This document shows positions 304 to 16,140 of a DNA stretch of 64,000 nt, piece by piece (positions within the stretch are counted from its first letter, which is position 1; every line of letters begins with the position of its first letter). The notes under the pieces were generated by a model. It searched no databases and was not told the origin of the DNA. It saw only the letters and a list, made by a program, of their open reading frames with translations. Origin of the DNA: a virus; the IMG/VR virus record IMGVR_UViG_3300049491_000383, positions 1 through 64,000 of that record, one strand, 5' to 3'. A program made the position numbers and the translations under genes.

Positions 304-564
304 TTAATACTTCTTATCTTTGTGCCAATGTCCAGAAGCAATCATTTCCTCTACTTGCTTTTCCCAACGCTTGCGGGCTTGCTTCTTCATACGCTGCTTC
401 TCAACAGCCGGCTTTTCGTATGCCATCCTGTCTTTTACTTCTTTAAGCAACCCAGAGTCCTGGACTTTCTTAGACCATGTACGCAATGCGCGACCGAAAT
501 CATCACCACGCACCTCCACAGTGATACCTCTGCGCTTCTTTCCATCTCTAAAGTTATTGCCCAT
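304..564 (-). CDS. rpsU: Phage-encoded ribosomal protein bS21
   Basis: An 86-residue basic protein that follows the bS21 pattern along its whole core: ITVEVRGDDFGRALRTW (residues 14-30), then SGLLKEVKDR and YEKPAVEKQRMKKQARKR (49-66), matching the bacterial V-R--E-F--ALR-F, G-L-E-R-R and Y-EKP---R-RK-A--R signature. bS21 is a small-subunit protein next to the anti-Shine-Dalgarno region and acts in initiation; viral bS21 homologues are known in environmental phages. The start is the ATG at 564, which lies inside the last codons of clpX (overlap of 11 nt), so the two are probably translationally coupled. The reading frame stays open further upstream, but only as a shadow of clpX. Confidence 0.9.
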   Translation of the reverse strand: MGNNFRDGKKRRGITVEVRGDDFGRALRTWSKKVQDSGLLKEVKDRMAYEKPAVEKQRMKKQARKRWEKQVEEMIASGHWHKDKKY

Positions 565-1798
565 TGTTTGCTCGTTTCTTTGCCTTGTATACATGTTTAA
601 TAGCACCATTTGCGTCAACAAAAATCTTGTTGACCCCTTCCTTTGCAATTCTAGGCAATATAAATTGTGTTGCCTGTAGGTCTCTTTCAATAATTGTACG
701 CAAGCCTCTTGCGCCAACTTTCTGTTTCAAACATTCGTCTGCAACATTCTGTAGGTATTTATCATCGAAGTCCAAAGTGATGCCTTCATATTTAAATAGG
801 GCTTTAAACTGGCTGATAATGCTGTTCTTTGGTTCTTTAAGGATACGGATCATCATCTCGGGTGTCAGATCGTCAAATACAACATGAACTGGATGGCGAC
901 CAACAAACTCTGGAATCAATCCAAACTTTACAAAGTCATCCGGAGTGGCTGTCTTGGCTGTTTTCGAGAATGCTTGCTTCGTATTAAGTGCAGCACCGAT
1001 ACCAATGCTTGATTTTGAACGGTTCTTACGGATTACCTCATCCAAGCCAACAAATGCACCACTACAAATGAACAATACATCCTTTGTATCAAAATTAATT
1101 GTTTCGTCGTAGTCATCAATGGTGATAATGGTGCCTTCAATCAACTTTAGAAGAGATTGTTGAACACCTTCACCGGAGACATCCCTACTAACAGTGGCAG
1201 ATTCACTCTTTCTACTCTTTTTATCAATTTCATCAATAAAGATAATGCCGTGTTGTGCCTTCTCTACGTCATCATCGGCGTTTGCCAGTAACTTCTTAAC
1301 TAAATTCTCTACATCTTCACCGACGTAGCCGGCCTCTGTCAATGTTGTAGCGTCTGCTATCACGTACGGTAGATCAAACAGTTTTGCAATGGTTTTTACA
1401 GTGAGTGTCTTGCCACATCCGCTTTCGCCAATCATCAAAAGATTGGATTTTTCAATCTCTGTCTTTGATGTGCTGTGGAGACGCTTATAATGGTTATAGA
1501 CTGCAACAGAAATGGCAATCTTTGCGTCATCTTGACCAATAACATATTCGTCGAGATGGACTTTAATCTGTTCCGGGGTAGGAATCTTCTCTTTACGCTT
1601 CTTGACAATCTTTTCCGGCTCTTCATTATGGAGTGTATCATAAGATACATCCACACATTCATTACAAATGTAGATATTCTTGCCACCAAATTCCGGACCC
1701 TCAATCATCTGTTCTACTTGATGACGTCCTTTATGGCAAAACGAACAATTAATGATTCTCTTAATGCCAGGGTCTACGGTTTCTGTCGTTTCTGTCAT
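554..1798 (-). CDS. clpX: ClpX AAA+ unfoldase with zinc-binding domain
   Basis: A full-length ClpX (414 aa; bacterial ClpX is about 420). The N-terminal zinc domain is intact (C18, C21, C45, C48). Walker A is GESGCGKT (124-131), the substrate-gripping pore-1 loop GYVG is at 157-160, Walker B IIFIDE at 185-190, the RDVSGEGVQQ segment at 205-214 and sensor-2 GAR at 362-364. Two functional loops differ from bacterial ClpX: the segment that carries the RKH loop is replaced by a short acidic stretch (about 224-236), and the ClpP-docking IGF tripeptide reads IGI (265-267). It may therefore be an unfoldase with altered substrate choice or altered ClpP docking. No ClpP is encoded in the window. It is followed directly by bS21 and preceded after 1 nt by a membrane protein gene. 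Confidence 0.95.
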   Translation of the reverse strand: MTETTETVDPGIKRIINCSFCHKGRHQVEQMIEGPEFGGKNIYICNECVDVSYDTLHNEEPEKIVKKRKEKIPTPEQIKVHLDEYVIGQDDAKIAISVAVYNHYKRLHSTSKTEIEKSNLLMIGESGCGKTLTVKTIAKLFDLPYVIADATTLTEAGYVGEDVENLVKKLLANADDDVEKAQHGIIFIDEIDKKSRKSESATVSRDVSGEGVQQSLLKLIEGTIITIDDYDETINFDTKDVLFICSGAFVGLDEVIRKNRSKSSIGIGAALNTKQAFSKTAKTATPDDFVKFGLIPEFVGRHPVHVVFDDLTPEMMIRILKEPKNSIISQFKALFKYEGITLDFDDKYLQNVADECLKQKVGARGLRTIIERDLQATQFILPRIAKEGVNKIFVDANGAIKHVYKAKKRANNGQ

Positions 1799-4712: not shown

Positions 4713-5264
4713 CTACGTTGTAGATAATGAGTTTCTCTTGTCTCTTAACTCTTCCGGAGTTAAGCCCTTATTTTCTGGTGCTTCTTCATCGATCTTAGGT
4801 GTTAGAATTTCTTCTAACGGAATATCGGCAATAGACAAATCATCTCTGTCACCCTTCTTATCTTTTCCGGGGGCACCAAACTCTCCGCGCTCTCTTTGTC
4901 CGTTTTTCTTACGTGTCTTAGCTTTGGCTAGTTGATTTTCTGTCTTTTCGCTGTAAGGAATTAGATGCAACCTTGATTTATTTTCTTGTATAACCCAAAG
5001 CTCTATCCTCTTAATACCTTTGTCCACGATAACACGATAATCAACGAATTCGAACTTACCTTCAGGGCGAACATCATATGCTCGTCCCAACATCTGATCG
5101 CCCTGCACCACAAGAATGTAGGTTGTCAGCAGGATCAATGGAATTGCCACATATTTTACAGCATATCGCATCGGAACTTTAATAATCAGTATACAACATA
5201 GAATTGCAAGTGTCAAGTCTAGAAACATTAACACATTAAAGAAATGTAATACAGATAGAAACAT
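4713..5264 (-). CDS. Two-pass membrane protein next to the TolQR-like pair
   Basis: 183 residues with hydrophobic segments at about 5-28 and 36-55, followed by a soluble domain and a basic, then acidic, probably disordered C-terminal part (about 105-183). It follows the TolR/ExbD-like gene after 1 nt and has GGAGAG upstream of its ATG. Position suggests a third component of the membrane complex, but no family is recognised. Confidence 0.7.
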   Translation of the reverse strand: MFLSVLHFFNVLMFLDLTLAILCCILIIKVPMRYAVKYVAIPLILLTTYILVVQGDQMLGRAYDVRPEGKFEFVDYRVIVDKGIKRIELWVIQENKSRLHLIPYSEKTENQLAKAKTRKKNGQRERGEFGAPGKDKKGDRDDLSIADIPLEEILTPKIDEEAPENKGLTPEELRDKRNSLSTT

Positions 5265-5265
5265 A

Positions 5266-5934
5266 TTATCTCTCCTGAGGACTATAATGATAGCCGCTTG
5301 CGGGATTTTGTTCCAATATAAATGGTTCTTCTATGTCTAGTTCGATTCCCGAAACTATTTCATTCTGAACAAGAAAGGAAAATGCAGTTCTTTCCTCTTT
5401 AGACTTAGTGAGGATGATTTCTTTTCTTGCTAGAATCTTATAGCTTGGATTTATTTGAATCAATTCAACGATGACAGGTATTGGCTCACCTGTATAGGTT
5501 GCGACTCCCTTTCCATCTTCGGTCTTAGGCAAGAAGAAATTGATATTTGTCACATATCGTCCGGGGATTTTTCCTCTGAAGGAAATAACCTCACGTCGTG
5601 GGGATAGTGCAACTTTCTTTTCATCTTTTATGACAAAATTGTTTGAAATTCCCAAATCATCACGTTCTAGGAATACATAGGTATTTTCTTTATGATTATA
5701 CCCAATTGCCTGCCCCTCAGGCACCTTAAGCCACAGATCAATGTCGTGTGGTGACAGATCGGGCCATGTCATGGTAATGATTATGTCGGCTCTTGCTTCA
5801 ATATCTTTTTTCTTTGCAGGCTCATTAATGAGCATCAATGATGCAAAGAAAAGTAATACGAATACAATGATAATGTTGAATAACATATCGATAAACGATA
5901 TGTTACTACCGTAATAGATGCTGCTCTTTTTCAT
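5266..5934 (-). CDS. ExbD/TolR-like membrane protein with extracytoplasmic beta-rich domain
   Basis: 222 residues. A short cytoplasmic N terminus is followed by a single hydrophobic segment (about 14-36) with an acidic residue at its start (FIDMLFN, Asp16). This matches the layout of TolR/ExbD/MotB, where a membrane Asp carries protons. The remainder should lie in the periplasm; its opening (TMTWPDLSPHDIDLWLKVPEG) recalls beta-sandwich domains of the YfaP/DUF2135 type. There is no recognisable OmpA-type peptidoglycan-binding motif. It follows the TolQ-like gene after 1 nt. Role unknown; a proton-driven inner-membrane machine is inferred from the pair. Confidence 0.7.
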   Translation of the reverse strand: MKKSSIYYGSNISFIDMLFNIIIVFVLLFFASLMLINEPAKKKDIEARADIIITMTWPDLSPHDIDLWLKVPEGQAIGYNHKENTYVFLERDDLGISNNFVIKDEKKVALSPRREVISFRGKIPGRYVTNINFFLPKTEDGKGVATYTGEPIPVIVELIQINPSYKILARKEIILTKSKEERTAFSFLVQNEIVSGIELDIEEPFILEQNPASGYHYSPQER

Positions 5935-5935
5935 T

Positions 5936-6424
5936 TTACTTCTCCGGTAGAGAAGTATCTAGATTGATAAGTTGTAGCTTGACTAATTGACTGGTAATTA
6001 GGCCAACAAGTGTAGTCAGCACCGCTGTACTCATGCCGCCTGCCATATTAACAATTGCCGACTTCGCAGTGACAATATTCGATGGATCAAGCCCTACAAG
6101 TGCTGGGCCAAGCATCATTGTGAACCCGATAAGAGTTCCCATCATACCAAGCGCCATCAATAGTTCTGATCCATACCAGCAAGGCTGCATATAGATAACA
6201 TTTTCATTGTAAATCTTACTACCCGGCTCGTTATTAGTTAGCCGATGTGTGAGAACTCCAACAAAGCCCGTTAGAATCAAATAAAGAATCATTGTAATGA
6301 AGCTTAGTCCTGATAAATCTGCAATCCAAAGTGCTGCAAATAAACCCTTACCCTGGATTACTCCCATTGACACTAGCGAAGAGAGGAATATAACAAACCA
6401 GCGCAACATTACAATGTTTTTCAT
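5936..6424 (-). CDS. MotA/TolQ/ExbB-type proton channel subunit
   Basis: 162 residues, short for the family. Hydrophobic segments lie at about 8-28, 38-60, 87-111 and 127-149. The last two carry the family signature: ALGMMGTLIGFTMML (compare GLLGTVWGI in TolQ) and AGGMSTAVLTTLVGL (compare PGIAEALIATAIGL). It forms a tandem with the TolR/ExbD-like gene that follows. TolQ and ExbB form pentameric channels around TolR/ExbD and use the proton gradient to move partner proteins. The start overlaps the stop of the cupin-like gene (TAATG). Confidence 0.8.
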   Translation of the reverse strand: MKNIVMLRWFVIFLSSLVSMGVIQGKGLFAALWIADLSGLSFITMILYLILTGFVGVLTHRLTNNEPGSKIYNENVIYMQPCWYGSELLMALGMMGTLIGFTMMLGPALVGLDPSNIVTAKSAIVNMAGGMSTAVLTTLVGLITSQLVKLQLINLDTSLPEK

Positions 6425-6905: not shown

Positions 6906-7595
6906 TCACTCCTTTCCGAGCGATACCAACCTCATGAATTCGGTTCTAACGTTCGGATCTGTTTTGAAAACACCACCTAACTTACTGGTCACTGTGCTAG
7001 AACCGGTATCTTCAACTCCTCTGCTCTTAACGCAGAAGTGTTGTGCATGAACTACCACACCGATATTGTCTGTTTCCAGAATATACTGTAATGCGTGGTA
7101 AACTTGCTCTGTAAGACGTTCTTGGATCTGTGGTCGCTTGCTGAAATATTCAACTACGCGATTGATCTTGCTCAGACCTAGAACTTTCTGATTAGGAATG
7201 TATGCAACTGTTGCAAGACCGTCGATGATGACGAAATGATGCTCACAGTTTGATTGAACGTTGACATTACGCTCGATAACCATCTCATCATACTTCATTT
7301 TGTTGTCTACTGCGGTGCATTTTGGAAATGCATCGTAATCTAGACCCCAAAAGATTTCGTTTACATACATCTTGGCAACACGCTTAGGTGTTTCCATTAG
7401 ACTGTCATCAGACAAGTCTAATCCCAGAGTTTGCATGATTTTCGACATATGATTTTCGATAATGTCGATCTTTTCTTTACGATCGAGACTATTACCGTAG
7501 CCGTCTTGCATTGGAGTTTCTACACCGCACTTTACCAAGTGTTCGTGTACACGATGACCCAATTCTGGGTCGCATTTTGTTTTATTGTATGACAT
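6906..7595 (-). CDS. folE: GTP cyclohydrolase I
   Basis: 229 residues, typical length. It converts GTP to 7,8-dihydroneopterin triphosphate, the first step of folate, pterin and 7-deazaguanine synthesis. Zinc ligands are visible at Cys117 and His120 (NCEHHF) and Cys188 (HFCVKSRG); the substrate loop SKINRVVEYFSKRPQIQERLT is intact. AAGGAAGGA precedes the ATG. The gene could feed folate for the adjacent ThyA-family enzyme, or the PTPS-like protein downstream; QueE and QueC, needed for a full preQ0 route, are absent from the window. Confidence 0.95.
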   Translation of the reverse strand: MSYNKTKCDPELGHRVHEHLVKCGVETPMQDGYGNSLDRKEKIDIIENHMSKIMQTLGLDLSDDSLMETPKRVAKMYVNEIFWGLDYDAFPKCTAVDNKMKYDEMVIERNVNVQSNCEHHFVIIDGLATVAYIPNQKVLGLSKINRVVEYFSKRPQIQERLTEQVYHALQYILETDNIGVVVHAQHFCVKSRGVEDTGSSTVTSKLGGVFKTDPNVRTEFMRLVSLGKE

Positions 7596-7665: not shown

Positions 7666-7992
7666 TTAATATAAGCTATGCCTACTTTTCAGGTTCTGGA
7701 AATCTTGATTATATGGTACTGTGAACAATGCAGTATTCAATGCCTTCATTAATTCCTTGAAATCGTTCTTTAGGACTTGGTTATCGGTCTTCAATTGCAT
7801 AACATCCATATATAGTATGTCATGTTCCTGAATTATCCGCTTAAGGATGGATGGATTCTGATTGGTTCCCTTAAGGATGGCAACAACTTGCTCAGTTTCT
7901 GTAAATGCCTTAAGTTGTTCAACACTTAATGCTCCAAAAAGCTTGTCTAGTAGGTCGATTTTATCGACCTGTTCACCGGTCATTGTTATCAT
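7666..7992 (-). CDS. Small hypothetical protein downstream of thyA
   Basis: A 108-residue, probably helical soluble protein (VEQLKAF..., then ILYMDVMQLKTDNQVLKNDFKELM, coiled-coil-like). No family recognised. Its ATG overlaps the thyA stop (ATGA), so it is translated with the synthase. Confidence 0.6.
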   Translation of the reverse strand: MITMTGEQVDKIDLLDKLFGALSVEQLKAFTETEQVVAILKGTNQNPSILKRIIQEHDILYMDVMQLKTDNQVLKNDFKELMKALNTALFTVPYNQDFQNLKSRHSLY

Positions 7993-8906
7993 ACTGCCAT
8001 CCCCGGTTTGTTCTGCACATCAGGATAAGGATCGTAACCAGCAAGCTCGATATCTTCCCATTGCAGATTCAAAATATCGTCGAATGTAGGCAAATTTTTC
8101 TTGATAGTGAGTGTAGGTAACGCACGTGGCTTACGATCAAGCATCTCTGCCACCATATCCATCTGATTCTGGTAGATATGAACGTCCCAGCCAAAATAAA
8201 CAAGGTCGCCAGGAGTCATTCCCAGATGCTTTGCAAAGATATGGTTAATCAATGCATAGGATGCAATGTTAAATGGCAACCCGAAGGGAACGTCGTTACT
8301 ACGCATAACGAAAGAATTATTCAGTTTGCCATTGCCGACCGTAAAATCGCCCTCAACGGAGTACATATGAAGCATATGGCATGGGGGTAATGCCATTTCG
8401 TGAAGTTGCCCAGGGTTCCAACCAGTAACTACGTGGCGACGTCCATAAGGATCCTTCTTTATGCCGGAAAGCAAATCAGCAATTTGGTCTACTTCGGGAC
8501 CACGCTTAACAATTTCAATGTTTTCTTCGTTTGCCCAACTCCACTGAGTCTTTGCATCCAGTGTCTCCCAATGACGCCATTGGTATCCATAACCTTTTCC
8601 CATGTCACCTTCCGGTAAATGGCTTAGACCACGCTTGTCTAGGAACTCACGCGATGTGTTTCCTTTCCAAATGTTGATTTTTTTGTCTTCAAGGACCTTA
8701 GTTTGTGTTTCTCCACGTAGGAAAAACATGGTCTCTTCAAAGGCAATGCGCAGAGGAACCCTGCGTGTTGTCTGAATCGGGAATCCCTTTGAAAGATCCC
8801 AGCGGAGCATTCTCCCGAACACTGCACGCGAGCCAATACCGGTGCGGTCTGGCTTGTCGACGCCATTTTCTATGACGTCTTTTAATAAATCGATGTAATT
8901 TTGCAT
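7989..8906 (-). CDS. thyA: Thymidylate synthase family enzyme (TS or dUMP hydroxymethylase)
   Basis: 305 residues, with the ThyA catalytic Cys at 176 (LPPCHMLH), Arg21 (PDRTGIG), the dUMP-selecting Asn213 (GLPFNIASYAL) and the folate-clasping C terminus MAV. The insertion SREFLDKRG resembles eukaryotic TS. Two parts are unlike ordinary TS: the YQRS-D motif reads FVMRSNDVPFG, close to T4 dCMP hydroxymethylase (NMRSNDVVFG), and IWD/GPVYG read IWK/GKGYG. Retained Asn213 points to dUMP rather than dCMP as substrate. It is thus either a thymidylate synthase or a dUMP 5-hydroxymethylase; sequence alone does not decide. AGGGG precedes the ATG. Confidence 0.9.
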   Translation of the reverse strand: MQNYIDLLKDVIENGVDKPDRTGIGSRAVFGRMLRWDLSKGFPIQTTRRVPLRIAFEETMFFLRGETQTKVLEDKKINIWKGNTSREFLDKRGLSHLPEGDMGKGYGYQWRHWETLDAKTQWSWANEENIEIVKRGPEVDQIADLLSGIKKDPYGRRHVVTGWNPGQLHEMALPPCHMLHMYSVEGDFTVGNGKLNNSFVMRSNDVPFGLPFNIASYALINHIFAKHLGMTPGDLVYFGWDVHIYQNQMDMVAEMLDRKPRALPTLTIKKNLPTFDDILNLQWEDIELAGYDPYPDVQNKPGMAV

Positions 8907-12819: not shown

Positions 12820-12827
12820 TATTTAGC
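12820..12827 (-). promoter_or_regulatory. Late-promoter-like octamer GCTAAATA overlapping the NAMPT stop
   Basis: GCTAAATA on the minus strand includes the TAA stop of NAMPT and lies 23 nt before the ATG of the saccharopine dehydrogenase-like gene. Confidence 0.35.
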
Positions 12828-14208
12828 GAACGGCCTTTCGCGAGTTCTCACGAACTTGGTCGAAAGTTGTCTCGTTGTACAAACGACCGTCCATGTAGCG
12901 ACGGTGTAAGTGGTCAACAATATCCTTGCCGTATTCGATCACCTTGGTAACAAACTTGCCAGTTTCGTCGGTAACAAGCATCAAGCGACCCTTCTTGCTC
13001 TTCTTCATTGAAGAAGTAACAGGATCCTTGTACACTTCTACCCATACACCGTTGATCATGGCAGCCGAACACTTCATTGCAAATTCCAGAGTGTCACGAT
13101 TGACCATCTGAAGCAATGCACCACCCTGGCCGAATGCCACGTTGTCGGCACTGTAACCGTTCATATCCATCACAGTCAGGATAGCACGGATCATTGCATG
13201 ATCAATACCGTCGCCCTGGATGATACGAACGTTGTTCAGGACCTTGTAGCCCTTGGCGTTCACGGTGTGGCCGAAATACTTGTCGAGGATCTTCAAGCAA
13301 TCATTCACCACCTGTACCGGATCGCCGCTGTCGGGACGCACAACAACCACGGCGCCGCTGGCGATAACTTCATCCTTCAGTTCGGTACCCCACTTCTTGC
13401 AGGCCTCATAGATGTCGTAGCTGTCACTCACGCAAGCAAGGAGCGCGCCCGGCCTTGCATAATGCTTCATCATGTTGCGATAAGCCTTGACTTCGTTTTC
13501 GCGACCCCAACTGGTAACGGTGCTGTGCTCCATGGCTGGGATACTGAAACCGCAAACCGGCGCATCGTAGTATTCCATCGCGGCAAGAACACCGGACAGA
13601 GTATCGGTGCCCATGAAATTGATCAAGTGTGCCATGCCACCAAGTGCAGCACTTTCAAGACTGGAAACACCACGGGCACCAAAGTCGTGCAACTTGAAAT
13701 CGATCAGCGAAGGATCGCCGTTCTTCTCCAGGAAGTGTGCAATGATGGTCTTGCTAACGTAGCTATTGGATGCAACAGTAGTCGGATACCAGATTGCACG
13801 AAGCAATGCAGTTTCCAGGAAGCTGGTTAGCCAATAGCACTTCGGATCGGTGTTGACGATTGAAACCAGAACGTTCTTCTGGCGCATCACAGTGCCCTCA
13901 TCCACGGCCTTGATTTCGACCGGAAGGTGTCCGCCGTGTGTGTTGACGATGTACATCCATCCTTCATAGTTGAACGGTTCGCCGTGTGCTTGTAGGATTT
14001 CGCGTGCCTGGATAACCATTGCTGCGGTGACCGGTGTGGTCATGTATTCACGCAGGAAGGCCTGCAGGCCGAAATAGACCAATTGGTCATACGCGCCGCC
14101 ACGGGATTCGATGTACGAGTACACAAATTCAGTGCCTTCGGGGTATTGCACCCACTGGCTGTACTTGTAACTGTCGCTGTTGAGAATGATGTTCTTTGCA
14201 AATTTCAT
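12823..14208 (-). CDS. nadV: Nicotinamide phosphoribosyltransferase (NAMPT)
   Basis: 461 residues, the family's usual length. It joins nicotinamide and PRPP to NMN, the committed step of NAD+ salvage. The catalytic His is His228 (SIPAMEHST, human His247); HDFGARGVSS (174-183) holds the Arg that stacks with nicotinamide, and GTDT (200-203) the Asp that selects it. The ATG at 14208 with AAGGAG 8 nt upstream is preferred over an in-frame ATG 33 nt earlier. The gene appears richer in G+C than most of the window. Together with the NMN adenylyltransferase at 15070-16140 it makes a two-step route from nicotinamide to NAD+. Confidence 0.95.
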   Translation of the reverse strand: MKFAKNIILNSDSYKYSQWVQYPEGTEFVYSYIESRGGAYDQLVYFGLQAFLREYMTTPVTAAMVIQAREILQAHGEPFNYEGWMYIVNTHGGHLPVEIKAVDEGTVMRQKNVLVSIVNTDPKCYWLTSFLETALLRAIWYPTTVASNSYVSKTIIAHFLEKNGDPSLIDFKLHDFGARGVSSLESAALGGMAHLINFMGTDTLSGVLAAMEYYDAPVCGFSIPAMEHSTVTSWGRENEVKAYRNMMKHYARPGALLACVSDSYDIYEACKKWGTELKDEVIASGAVVVVRPDSGDPVQVVNDCLKILDKYFGHTVNAKGYKVLNNVRIIQGDGIDHAMIRAILTVMDMNGYSADNVAFGQGGALLQMVNRDTLEFAMKCSAAMINGVWVEVYKDPVTSSMKKSKKGRLMLVTDETGKFVTKVIEYGKDIVDHLHRRYMDGRLYNETTFDQVRENSRKAVR

Positions 14209-14256
14209 GATAAACTCCTTATCAGTTAATGCCCAATTCACTGTTGGGACTTGTGG

Positions 14257-14824: not shown

Positions 14825-15073
14825 CTAATCTACCTCCGGCCTTGTATCTTCCGGAACTTTTGTTGTATAGAATCCACCATGCGCTAAAACCCACGCCATG
14901 GCATCCTCTTCCCTTTCAAACTTCAAATGTGGGTGGAGGTTATAGACACATTGGTCCGCCCAACCACCCTGATGATAATCAACTTCTATCACCCCACTTT
15001 GATTTAGCCATTCACCGAGTAGAGAATGGTCTTGACGACCATTCAGTCTCCGGATCTTGACATAGAAGCTCAT
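14825..15073 (-). CDS. Small protein with EEDAMAW motif
   Basis: 82 residues. The C-terminal part (EREEDAMAWVLAHGG) resembles EEDAMAFTLKFG in the protein at 43462-43692, so these seem to be distant members of one small family. Its ATG overlaps the stop of the NMN adenylyltransferase gene (ATGA). Function unknown. Confidence 0.6.
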   Translation of the reverse strand: MSFYVKIRRLNGRQDHSLLGEWLNQSGVIEVDYHQGGWADQCVYNLHPHLKFEREEDAMAWVLAHGGFYTTKVPEDTRPEVD

Positions 15074-16140
15074 TTCTTCGCTCTTGCCACCAAAGTCTTA
15101 ATGATGTGGGCGTGATCACCATACAAAAATTCGCCCATTTCTTCTACTTCCGAAAGCTTAAACCACTTTGCCTTCTTGGCATCGTCGGATCCTTTAACAC
15201 GCGGAAGTTCGCCATTTCCACCATCCAGCTCAATCAAATAAGCCATAGTGATGGTACGGCCACGCAAGTCACGATCTGGATGATCAAATACTTCGTTGTA
15301 GGTAATACCCTTGCGAAGTACAATCTCTGGAACCTTGATCTTGGTCTCCTCCACCAGTTCACGGATCACGCAATCTTCAAGGCGCTCCTTTGGATTAATA
15401 AATCCACCCGGCAGTGCCCAAAGTCCCTTACCCGGAGAGAAACCGCGTTGGATAAGGAGGATGTGGCCACCCTGGATAACGCAAGCATCGGTAGTCTGGA
15501 AAATAGGTACGAACGGTGCAGGTTCCCAGGACTTGTGGTAGTTCTTGTAGAACTTGTATTCTTCCACCATATCGGTGTAGAATTCAGTTTCCATGAACTC
15601 TTTCAGATAGTTGAGCACCGCCGAAGGAATTGCGCCCGACAAGAAATCGAGGTGACCTTCGAAATACAGTTCGCGGATCTTCGTTGCGTCGATGGGTCTA
15701 GAGCCATGCTCAACAAATCCTTCAAGCGGAATGAAGTCCCATTCCGGGAATGCGTGGTTGTACCAGCTGGATTCATCCTTGTCGTAACCCAGGATACAAA
15801 TATCCTTGTCACTCACGCCCGGATGCTGTGTAGCAACAGTCTTCTGCACTTGTGCAATCCAGCTATTGTCGCTGTACTTGAAGTCACGAAGGGCATGGAT
15901 GGAATAGTTTTGTTTGAGTGATCCCAACACCTTTTCAGATCTGCCAAGGCTGGCAGAAATCATCTCCATGCGCTCATGGAACTTGAAAGGATTCTTGGGT
16001 GTACGTGGTTGGTAAGAACTACCAATCAGAATTTGTACATGGTCTGCAAGGCTGAATGCTTGAGCGATGTTGGCTTGATGGCCATTGTGGAAAGGTTCGA
16101 AGCGTCCGATCAGGACTGCCACTGCGTAGCGTTTTGTCAT
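15070..16140 (-). CDS. nadM: Bifunctional NMN adenylyltransferase / Nudix hydrolase
   Basis: 356 residues with two domains. The N-terminal nucleotidylyltransferase domain (about 1-185) has GRFEPFHNGH (HxGH 18-21) and the later SRPIDATKIRE, and makes NAD+ from NMN and ATP. The C-terminal Nudix domain (about 205-350) has a complete Nudix box at about 245-267 (GGFINPKERLE then RELVEET). Bacterial fusions of this type hydrolyse ADP-ribose to AMP and ribose 5-phosphate. With NAMPT it could rebuild NAD+ and recycle ADP-ribose, which is what a phage would need against NAD+-destroying defences. Confidence 0.93.
   Translation of the reverse strand: MTKRYAVAVLIGRFEPFHNGHQANIAQAFSLADHVQILIGSSYQPRTPKNPFKFHERMEMISASLGRSEKVLGSLKQNYSIHALRDFKYSDNSWIAQVQKTVATQHPGVSDKDICILGYDKDESSWYNHAFPEWDFIPLEGFVEHGSRPIDATKIRELYFEGHLDFLSGAIPSAVLNYLKEFMETEFYTDMVEEYKFYKNYHKSWEPAPFVPIFQTTDACVIQGGHILLIQRGFSPGKGLWALPGGFINPKERLEDCVIRELVEETKIKVPEIVLRKGITYNEVFDHPDRDLRGRTITMAYLIELDGGNGELPRVKGSDDAKKAKWFKLSEVEEMGEFLYGDHAHIIKTLVARAKK

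Follow-up and report, generated by a model that had tools for sequence, protein, structure and literature searches.

A clade of phage ClpX proteins lacking the RKH loop, with an altered ClpP-docking tripeptide and a candidate phage-encoded ClpP partner

Textbooks treat the docking of ClpX to ClpP and the recognition of the ssrA tag as conserved, and the E. coli enzyme is broken by single changes at the positions involved. A viral fragment of 136,079 bases (IMG/VR record IMGVR_UViG_3300049491_000383), of which the first 64,000 nucleotides were analyzed as the window, encodes a ClpX in which the loops for both functions are altered. This raises the question of which protease such a ClpX would work with and which substrates it would select.

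The phage ClpX and its clade

Every defining feature that was tested places the window protein in the ClpX family. The whole protein scored 450.0 bits against the NCBIfam ClpX equivalog TIGR00382 (cut-off 370.75) and 481.3 bits against NF003745 (cut-off 359), the Pfam domains zf-C4_ClpX (PF06689, 45.4 bits), AAA_2 and ClpB_D2-small each exceeded their cut-offs, and the alignment gave 49% identity with E. coli ClpX. The E. coli ClpX and ClpP reference sequences matched the PDB alignments over the stretches compared. Besides the Walker A and pore-1 motifs (Table 1), the Walker B motif IDEID, the arginine finger R301 (E. coli R307) and the sensor-2 residue R364 (E. coli R370) were all kept, and these motor columns were invariant in the ClpX alignment. 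The AlphaFold model had a mean pLDDT of 82.6, and its top Foldseek matches were ClpX within ClpXP complexes. The initial annotation of this DNA had listed the zinc domain, Walker A/B, GYVG and sensor 2 as retained, all of which were present, and at the level of sequence and model the ring motor would work as in E. coli ClpX.

Table 1 Features of the clpX locus (window positions; Ec, E. coli numbering)
Feature	Position	Strand	Details	Basis
clpX	554..1798	-	414 aa, ATG start, RKH-less, IGI-type	ORF and profile matches
bS21 gene	304..564	-	86 aa; directly downstream, 11-base overlap with the 3' end of clpX	
N-terminal C4 zinc-binding domain	1655..1747	-	C18, C21, C45, C48	
Zinc-domain insertion	1679..1693	-	5 residues, ~36-40, EFGGK; shared with the clade, L022, L024 and L026	
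Walker A	1406..1429	-	GESGCGKT, residues 124-131	alignment
Pore-1 loop	1319..1330	-	GYVG, residues 157-160, invariant	alignment
Pore-2 Ser204	1187..1189	-	Ec Thr199 position (ssrA contact)	alignment; PMC7652416
RKH-loop replacement	1088..1129	-	IITIDDYDETINFD, residues 224-237; modelled tight beta-hairpin	alignment
ClpP-docking tripeptide	998..1006	-	IGI, residues 265-267, for IGF (Ec 268-270)	alignment
Leu271	986..988	-	Ec Val274 position, third docking side chain	alignment; PMC7112951

The gene surroundings were those of a large myovirus, with tail sheath, large terminase, DnaB-type helicase and UvsX genes. Elsewhere in the window, a nicotinamide phosphoribosyltransferase (12823-14241) and an NMN-adenylyltransferase-like/NUDIX protein (15070-16140) resembled a phage NAD+ salvage pair, which may serve to counter NAD-depleting defences. 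GTP cyclohydrolase I (6906-7595) and thymidylate synthase (7989-8906) genes may belong to a nucleotide or DNA-modification pathway. Three consecutive small membrane-anchored proteins (4713-6424) had no Pfam match, and the product of 5936-6424 had, by eye, a MotA/TolQ/ExbB-type look.

Comparisons were made with 141 bacterial ClpX (81 and 60, from Pseudomonadota and Bacillota) and with 49 other phage ClpX aligned from IMG/VR. The window protein fell into a phage clade of 19 members, whose 18 full-length members were united in the ClpX tree with an SH-aLRT support of 100. Between clpX and its relatives dN was 0.10-0.20 while dS exceeded 2 or was saturated, indicating strong purifying selection. 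L140, a genome labelled Cytophagales, belonged to the phylum of the Caulobacterales and carried a ClpX grouping with Burkholderiales; it is probably mislabelled or contaminated.

Changes in the substrate-recognition loops

The window segment IITIDDYDETINFDT aligned to the 22-residue RKH segment of E. coli ClpX, being 6-7 residues shorter and acidic instead of basic. This agrees, down to the residue numbers, with the mostly acidic stretch around residues 224-236 that had been noted initially. In the AlphaFold model, strands 224-229 and 232-237 took the place of the RKH loop. Displacement of the loop to another position, the check proposed with the initial annotation, was rejected, as an RKH-like triplet was found nowhere else in the window ClpX in any of the alignments made with bacterial and phage ClpX. 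The loop was missing in all 21 proteins of the 19-member clade and its sister pair (L022 and L024), and was partly shortened in L026. In the clade it was replaced by 12-14 residues with a net charge of -2 to -5. Among the sampled bacterial ClpX, an RKH loop of 19 residues was present in 141/141 and H230 itself in 137/141, and the loop charge was +1 or +2 in the 81 proteins for which it was computed.

Two further specificity changes had been overlooked. One concerned T199, a pore-2 residue that is one of six ssrA-contacting residues in E. coli ClpX (PMC7652416); this position held S, T, G, N, H or I within the clade. The other was the insertion in the zinc domain, where the spacing between the two CxxC motifs was 23 in the window ClpX versus 18 in bacteria. 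Y153, V154 and V202 (E. coli numbering) were retained, and, judged from the alignment, the window ClpX has lost or relaxed the other three of the six contacts with ssrA. By analogy with E. coli structures and mutants, the loss of the RKH loop, the relaxation at T199 and the zinc-domain insertion would together give the phage enzyme a substrate choice different from that of host ClpX.

A simpler account is that the RKH loop was merely lost, ssrA-type recognition being no longer needed, and that no new specificity was gained. It is compatible with a paired phage ClpP and competes only with the proposal of changed specificity. The variability at T199, which looks like relaxation, and the intermediate loop lengths of other phage ClpX speak for it, but the length and acidity of the replacement loop were uniform down to ~68% identity and the zinc-domain insertion was likewise conserved, which argues for a maintained rather than merely lost function. 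We therefore regard simple loss as rather unlikely and favor a changed specificity.

The docking loop and its presumed ClpP partner

The alignment confirmed the initial reading of IGI in place of the IGF tripeptide. Across the 19 clade members, the position of F270 was occupied by Ile in 17, by Leu in one (L012, IGL) and by Phe in one (L013, IGF), with G269 invariant, whereas Phe was found in 49/49 other phage ClpX and 141/141 bacterial ClpX. In the model the loop (residues 263-272) was disordered, consistent with a flexible docking loop. The RKH-less sister pair still had an [I/M]GF motif, indicating that loop loss preceded the docking change. As both changes were fixed across a well-supported clade under strong purifying selection, they are not attributable to chance.

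IGI falls outside the published docking consensus [L/I/V]-G-[F/L] (PMC6110781), and the single substitution F270L severely impairs ClpP binding by E. coli ClpX (PMC7112951), on which ground poor pairing of the phage ClpX with host ClpP is plausible. The same two points could be taken as signs that docking was lost altogether and that the protein became a ClpP-independent remodelling chaperone, acting for example in replication or virion assembly. Yeast mitochondrial ClpX works without ClpP. Several observations, however, disfavor this account. The docking loop was conserved as I-G-I/L/F rather than eroded, and relatives with enough downstream sequence encoded a ClpP of their own. These phage ClpPs retained the catalytic triad S97/H122/D171 as well as R192, whose replacement by Lys in E. 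coli ClpP abolishes ClpX binding (PMC7112951), and their docking pocket was changed in step, as described below. With R192 kept and the pocket altered, IGI looks like a switch of partner to a phage ClpP rather than like abandoned docking, and a ClpP-independent chaperone appears improbable.

No ClpP (PF00574) was found in the window's own record, which stops 553 bases past clpX. This absence is no evidence for a phage devoid of ClpP, since the clpP of its relatives sits further downstream than the record reaches. In 9/9 clade records with a detectable ClpP (L008, L011, L012, L014, L015, L017, L019, L021 and L023), the gene lay on the same strand 9.8-21 kb downstream of clpX; the distance was 7.9 kb in the sister record L022, the tenth in the ClpP set, and 24 kb in L026. 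The remaining clade records, in which no ClpP was seen, had at most 14.4 kb of sequence left downstream of clpX, including L025 (14.4 kb) and L006 (13.0 kb), which lacked ClpP though within the observed range of spacing. By comparison with these relatives, we infer that the matching ClpP of the window phage lies just beyond the record end. The record of L014 also contained, immediately next to clpP, a second, divergent ClpP-like ORF (L086:2100-2754; 22-24% identity with ClpP).

The pocket change centered on two positions. Position 90, Ile in E. coli ClpP, was Tyr in all nine clade ClpPs and in 2/132 bacterial ClpPs, and position 92 was Thr in eight of the nine and Ala in the other. That position 90 contributes to pocket specificity has been proven (Sa I91, human W146; PMC9663597, PMC6110781). 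The clade ClpPs belonged to two lineages, type A (7/9) and type B (2/9; L023 and L019), the latter being ~50% identical to type A and branching among bacterial ClpPs. Type B also carried Y90 and T92. The genes flanking clpP in the L023 and L019 records were ~55-80% identical to those of other clade records, and the simplest interpretation of L089 and L104 is a swap of clpP for the other ClpP lineage within a conserved gene order. In a tree with the pocket columns masked, keeping types A and B together cost 19-22 log units, with borderline AU-test values of p=0.074 (LG+G4) and p=0.050 (LG+C20); a separate origin of the two types is thus suggested by the sequences, not conclusively. A blind scan of 193 ClpP columns found only three, 34, 90 and 92, at which types A and B shared a bacterially rare residue. 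Two of these three lie in the 11-residue pocket (hypergeometric p=0.009, with the pocket set taken from general knowledge), and the residue shared at column 34 was frequent in other phage ClpPs as well (42%).

Aromatic residues at position 90 also occurred with F270 partners, namely in two Bacillota ClpPs, the L079-phage ClpP and human ClpP (W146), so that Y90 alone does not require IGI. Since F270I arose essentially once on the ClpX tree, the correlation between ClpX and ClpP leans mainly on the two-lineage argument. The match between docking loop and pocket is one of co-occurrence, and it includes the two ClpPs of the other lineage; as for physical fit, IGI and the Leu at E. coli position 274 would be accommodated by a pocket with Tyr90 and Thr92 (Ala in one). 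Phage ClpX and phage ClpP would then form a working pair and would pair poorly with host partners.

The phage protein might instead dock onto host ClpP or mix with host ClpX subunits and thereby redirect the host protease, an idea to which the high identity of its motor and interface residues with bacterial ClpX lends some weight. Such hijacking would be expected to retain IGF, yet the change at F270 hits the most sensitive site for docking to host ClpP, and a phage-encoded ClpP is at hand; we consider this very unlikely. In the preferred reading, the window ClpX probably supplies the unfoldase of a phage ClpXP whose docking interface is co-adapted with the phage ClpP and whose recognition of degrons is altered. 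Of the retargeted ClpX proposed in the initial annotation, the kept motor, the deleted recognition loop and the altered docking loop, both loop changes being conserved in the clade, are thus supported. Its suggestion of possible work without host ClpP, if taken to mean without any protease, is not supported, as the relatives carry their own ClpP with R192 and a changed docking pocket.

Candidate substrates and the phage tmRNA

An RKH-less ClpX would degrade a set of substrates unlike that of host ClpX, and these would probably be proteins of the phage or the host that are required at particular stages of infection. A further, less certain class may be proteins that carry the tag of the permuted tmRNA encoded by the phage itself. 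This tmRNA (RF04321, 115.4 bits) lies outside the window at record positions 109349-109683 on the minus strand (L004:9350-9684). Its acceptor stem is tRNA-Ala-like, with G3-U70 and a CCA end read directly, and it encodes the 25-residue tag ANAITTETALDLSALADSDMMLLAA. Extended tags of this kind, 24-28 residues long with the core LDLSALADSDM, were present in seven viral records (the window's, G001/L008, G006/L023, G002/L012, L210, L213 and L216). Synonymous differences in the core were many and non-synonymous ones few, so selection appears to act on the tag peptide itself. The part of the record beyond the window (64001-136079, L002-L005) also contained ~55 tRNA genes in 72 kb, among them a possible amber suppressor with anticodon CTA (L004:6983-7058); L210 had a CTA tRNA as well.

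Permuted tmRNAs were found in 13 of the 23 ClpX-phage records searched and SmpB in 4 of 22, including the clade relatives G002 and G003; SmpB was not found in the window's 136-kb record, an incomplete genome. Outside the clade, tags were ordinary (ANDESYALAA, ENDEIFALAA and others). Two clade members, L015 (ANDSFYTEALAA) and L070 (ANNEMFALVA), had ordinary tags too, and a strict pairing of the extended tag with RKH-less ClpX was rejected; the link between the two is partial. Three further records with extended tags, fragments of 5.7, 20.6 and 61 kb, held no ClpX. Two other ideas about the tag found no support. For copying from hosts, the core pattern matched none of 398 genomes of the phylum containing the Caulobacterales, which may not be the host's phylum; for a role of the core as degron in further proteins of the phage, no second occurrence was found in the six frames of the 136-kb record.

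One hypothesis is that the extended tag is read by the RKH-less ClpX. On a wider and more tentative proposal, possible but clearly less likely than the paired ClpXP itself, the phage would run an insulated tag-and-shred line, in which its own tmRNA tag is read by the RKH-less ClpX while IGI and Tyr90/Thr92 bar an exchange of partners or substrates with the host, which would make it a degradation system orthogonal by nature.

Relation to known systems

The clade altered both recognition functions while keeping a working-looking motor, and the same pocket occurred in two ClpP lineages, providing a natural experiment on ATPase-protease recognition. If docking were truly exclusive, it could furnish an orthogonal ClpXP with which to control protein degradation. 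The finding also suggests that proteolysis and ribosome rescue are among the host functions assumed by huge phages. Phages with ClpX and ClpP have been described before (PMC6102473, PMC7824862, PMC9723584). No description of an RKH-less ClpX, of an IGI loop together with a ClpP pocket that matches it, or of an extended phage tag was found in the literature searched, mostly without subscription journals.

Compared with E. coli ClpX (TIGR00382; 6wrf, 6wsg, 8e91), the window protein has the same domain order, zinc domain, motor residues, V202 and fold. It departs from the E. coli type in two features, the RKH loop and IGF, and differs in detail by the absence of that loop, T199S, F270I, V274L and five additional zinc-domain residues. 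Human mitochondrial CLPX is likewise active with altered ssrA loops: its residues corresponding to T199 and H230 are both Leu, and ssrA-tagged proteins are not among its substrates (PMC7652416). Human ClpP resembles the clade ClpPs in the aromatic W146 at pocket position 90 (PMC9663597), although the docking motif of human CLPX fits [L/I/V]-G-[F/L] (PMC6110781) and CLPX is only ~40% identical to the phage protein.

Among phages, ClpX is known from the jumbo phages Atu_ph07 of Agrobacterium and PA5oct of Pseudomonas and from the Prevotella Lak phages (phrog_4339; PMC6102473, PMC7824862). In Atu_ph07 it occurs together with ClpP, as in the clade relatives. These jumbo-phage ClpX are at most 49% identical to the window protein. 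In the loop alignment, which was drawn from IMG/VR, the 49 other phage ClpX all keep F270 and mostly keep a basic RKH-like loop. Huge phages encoding bS21 likewise carry bS21 and Clp protease genes (PMC9723584); those phages infect Bacteroidetes and have bS21 beside capsid genes, whereas here bS21 overlaps clpX.
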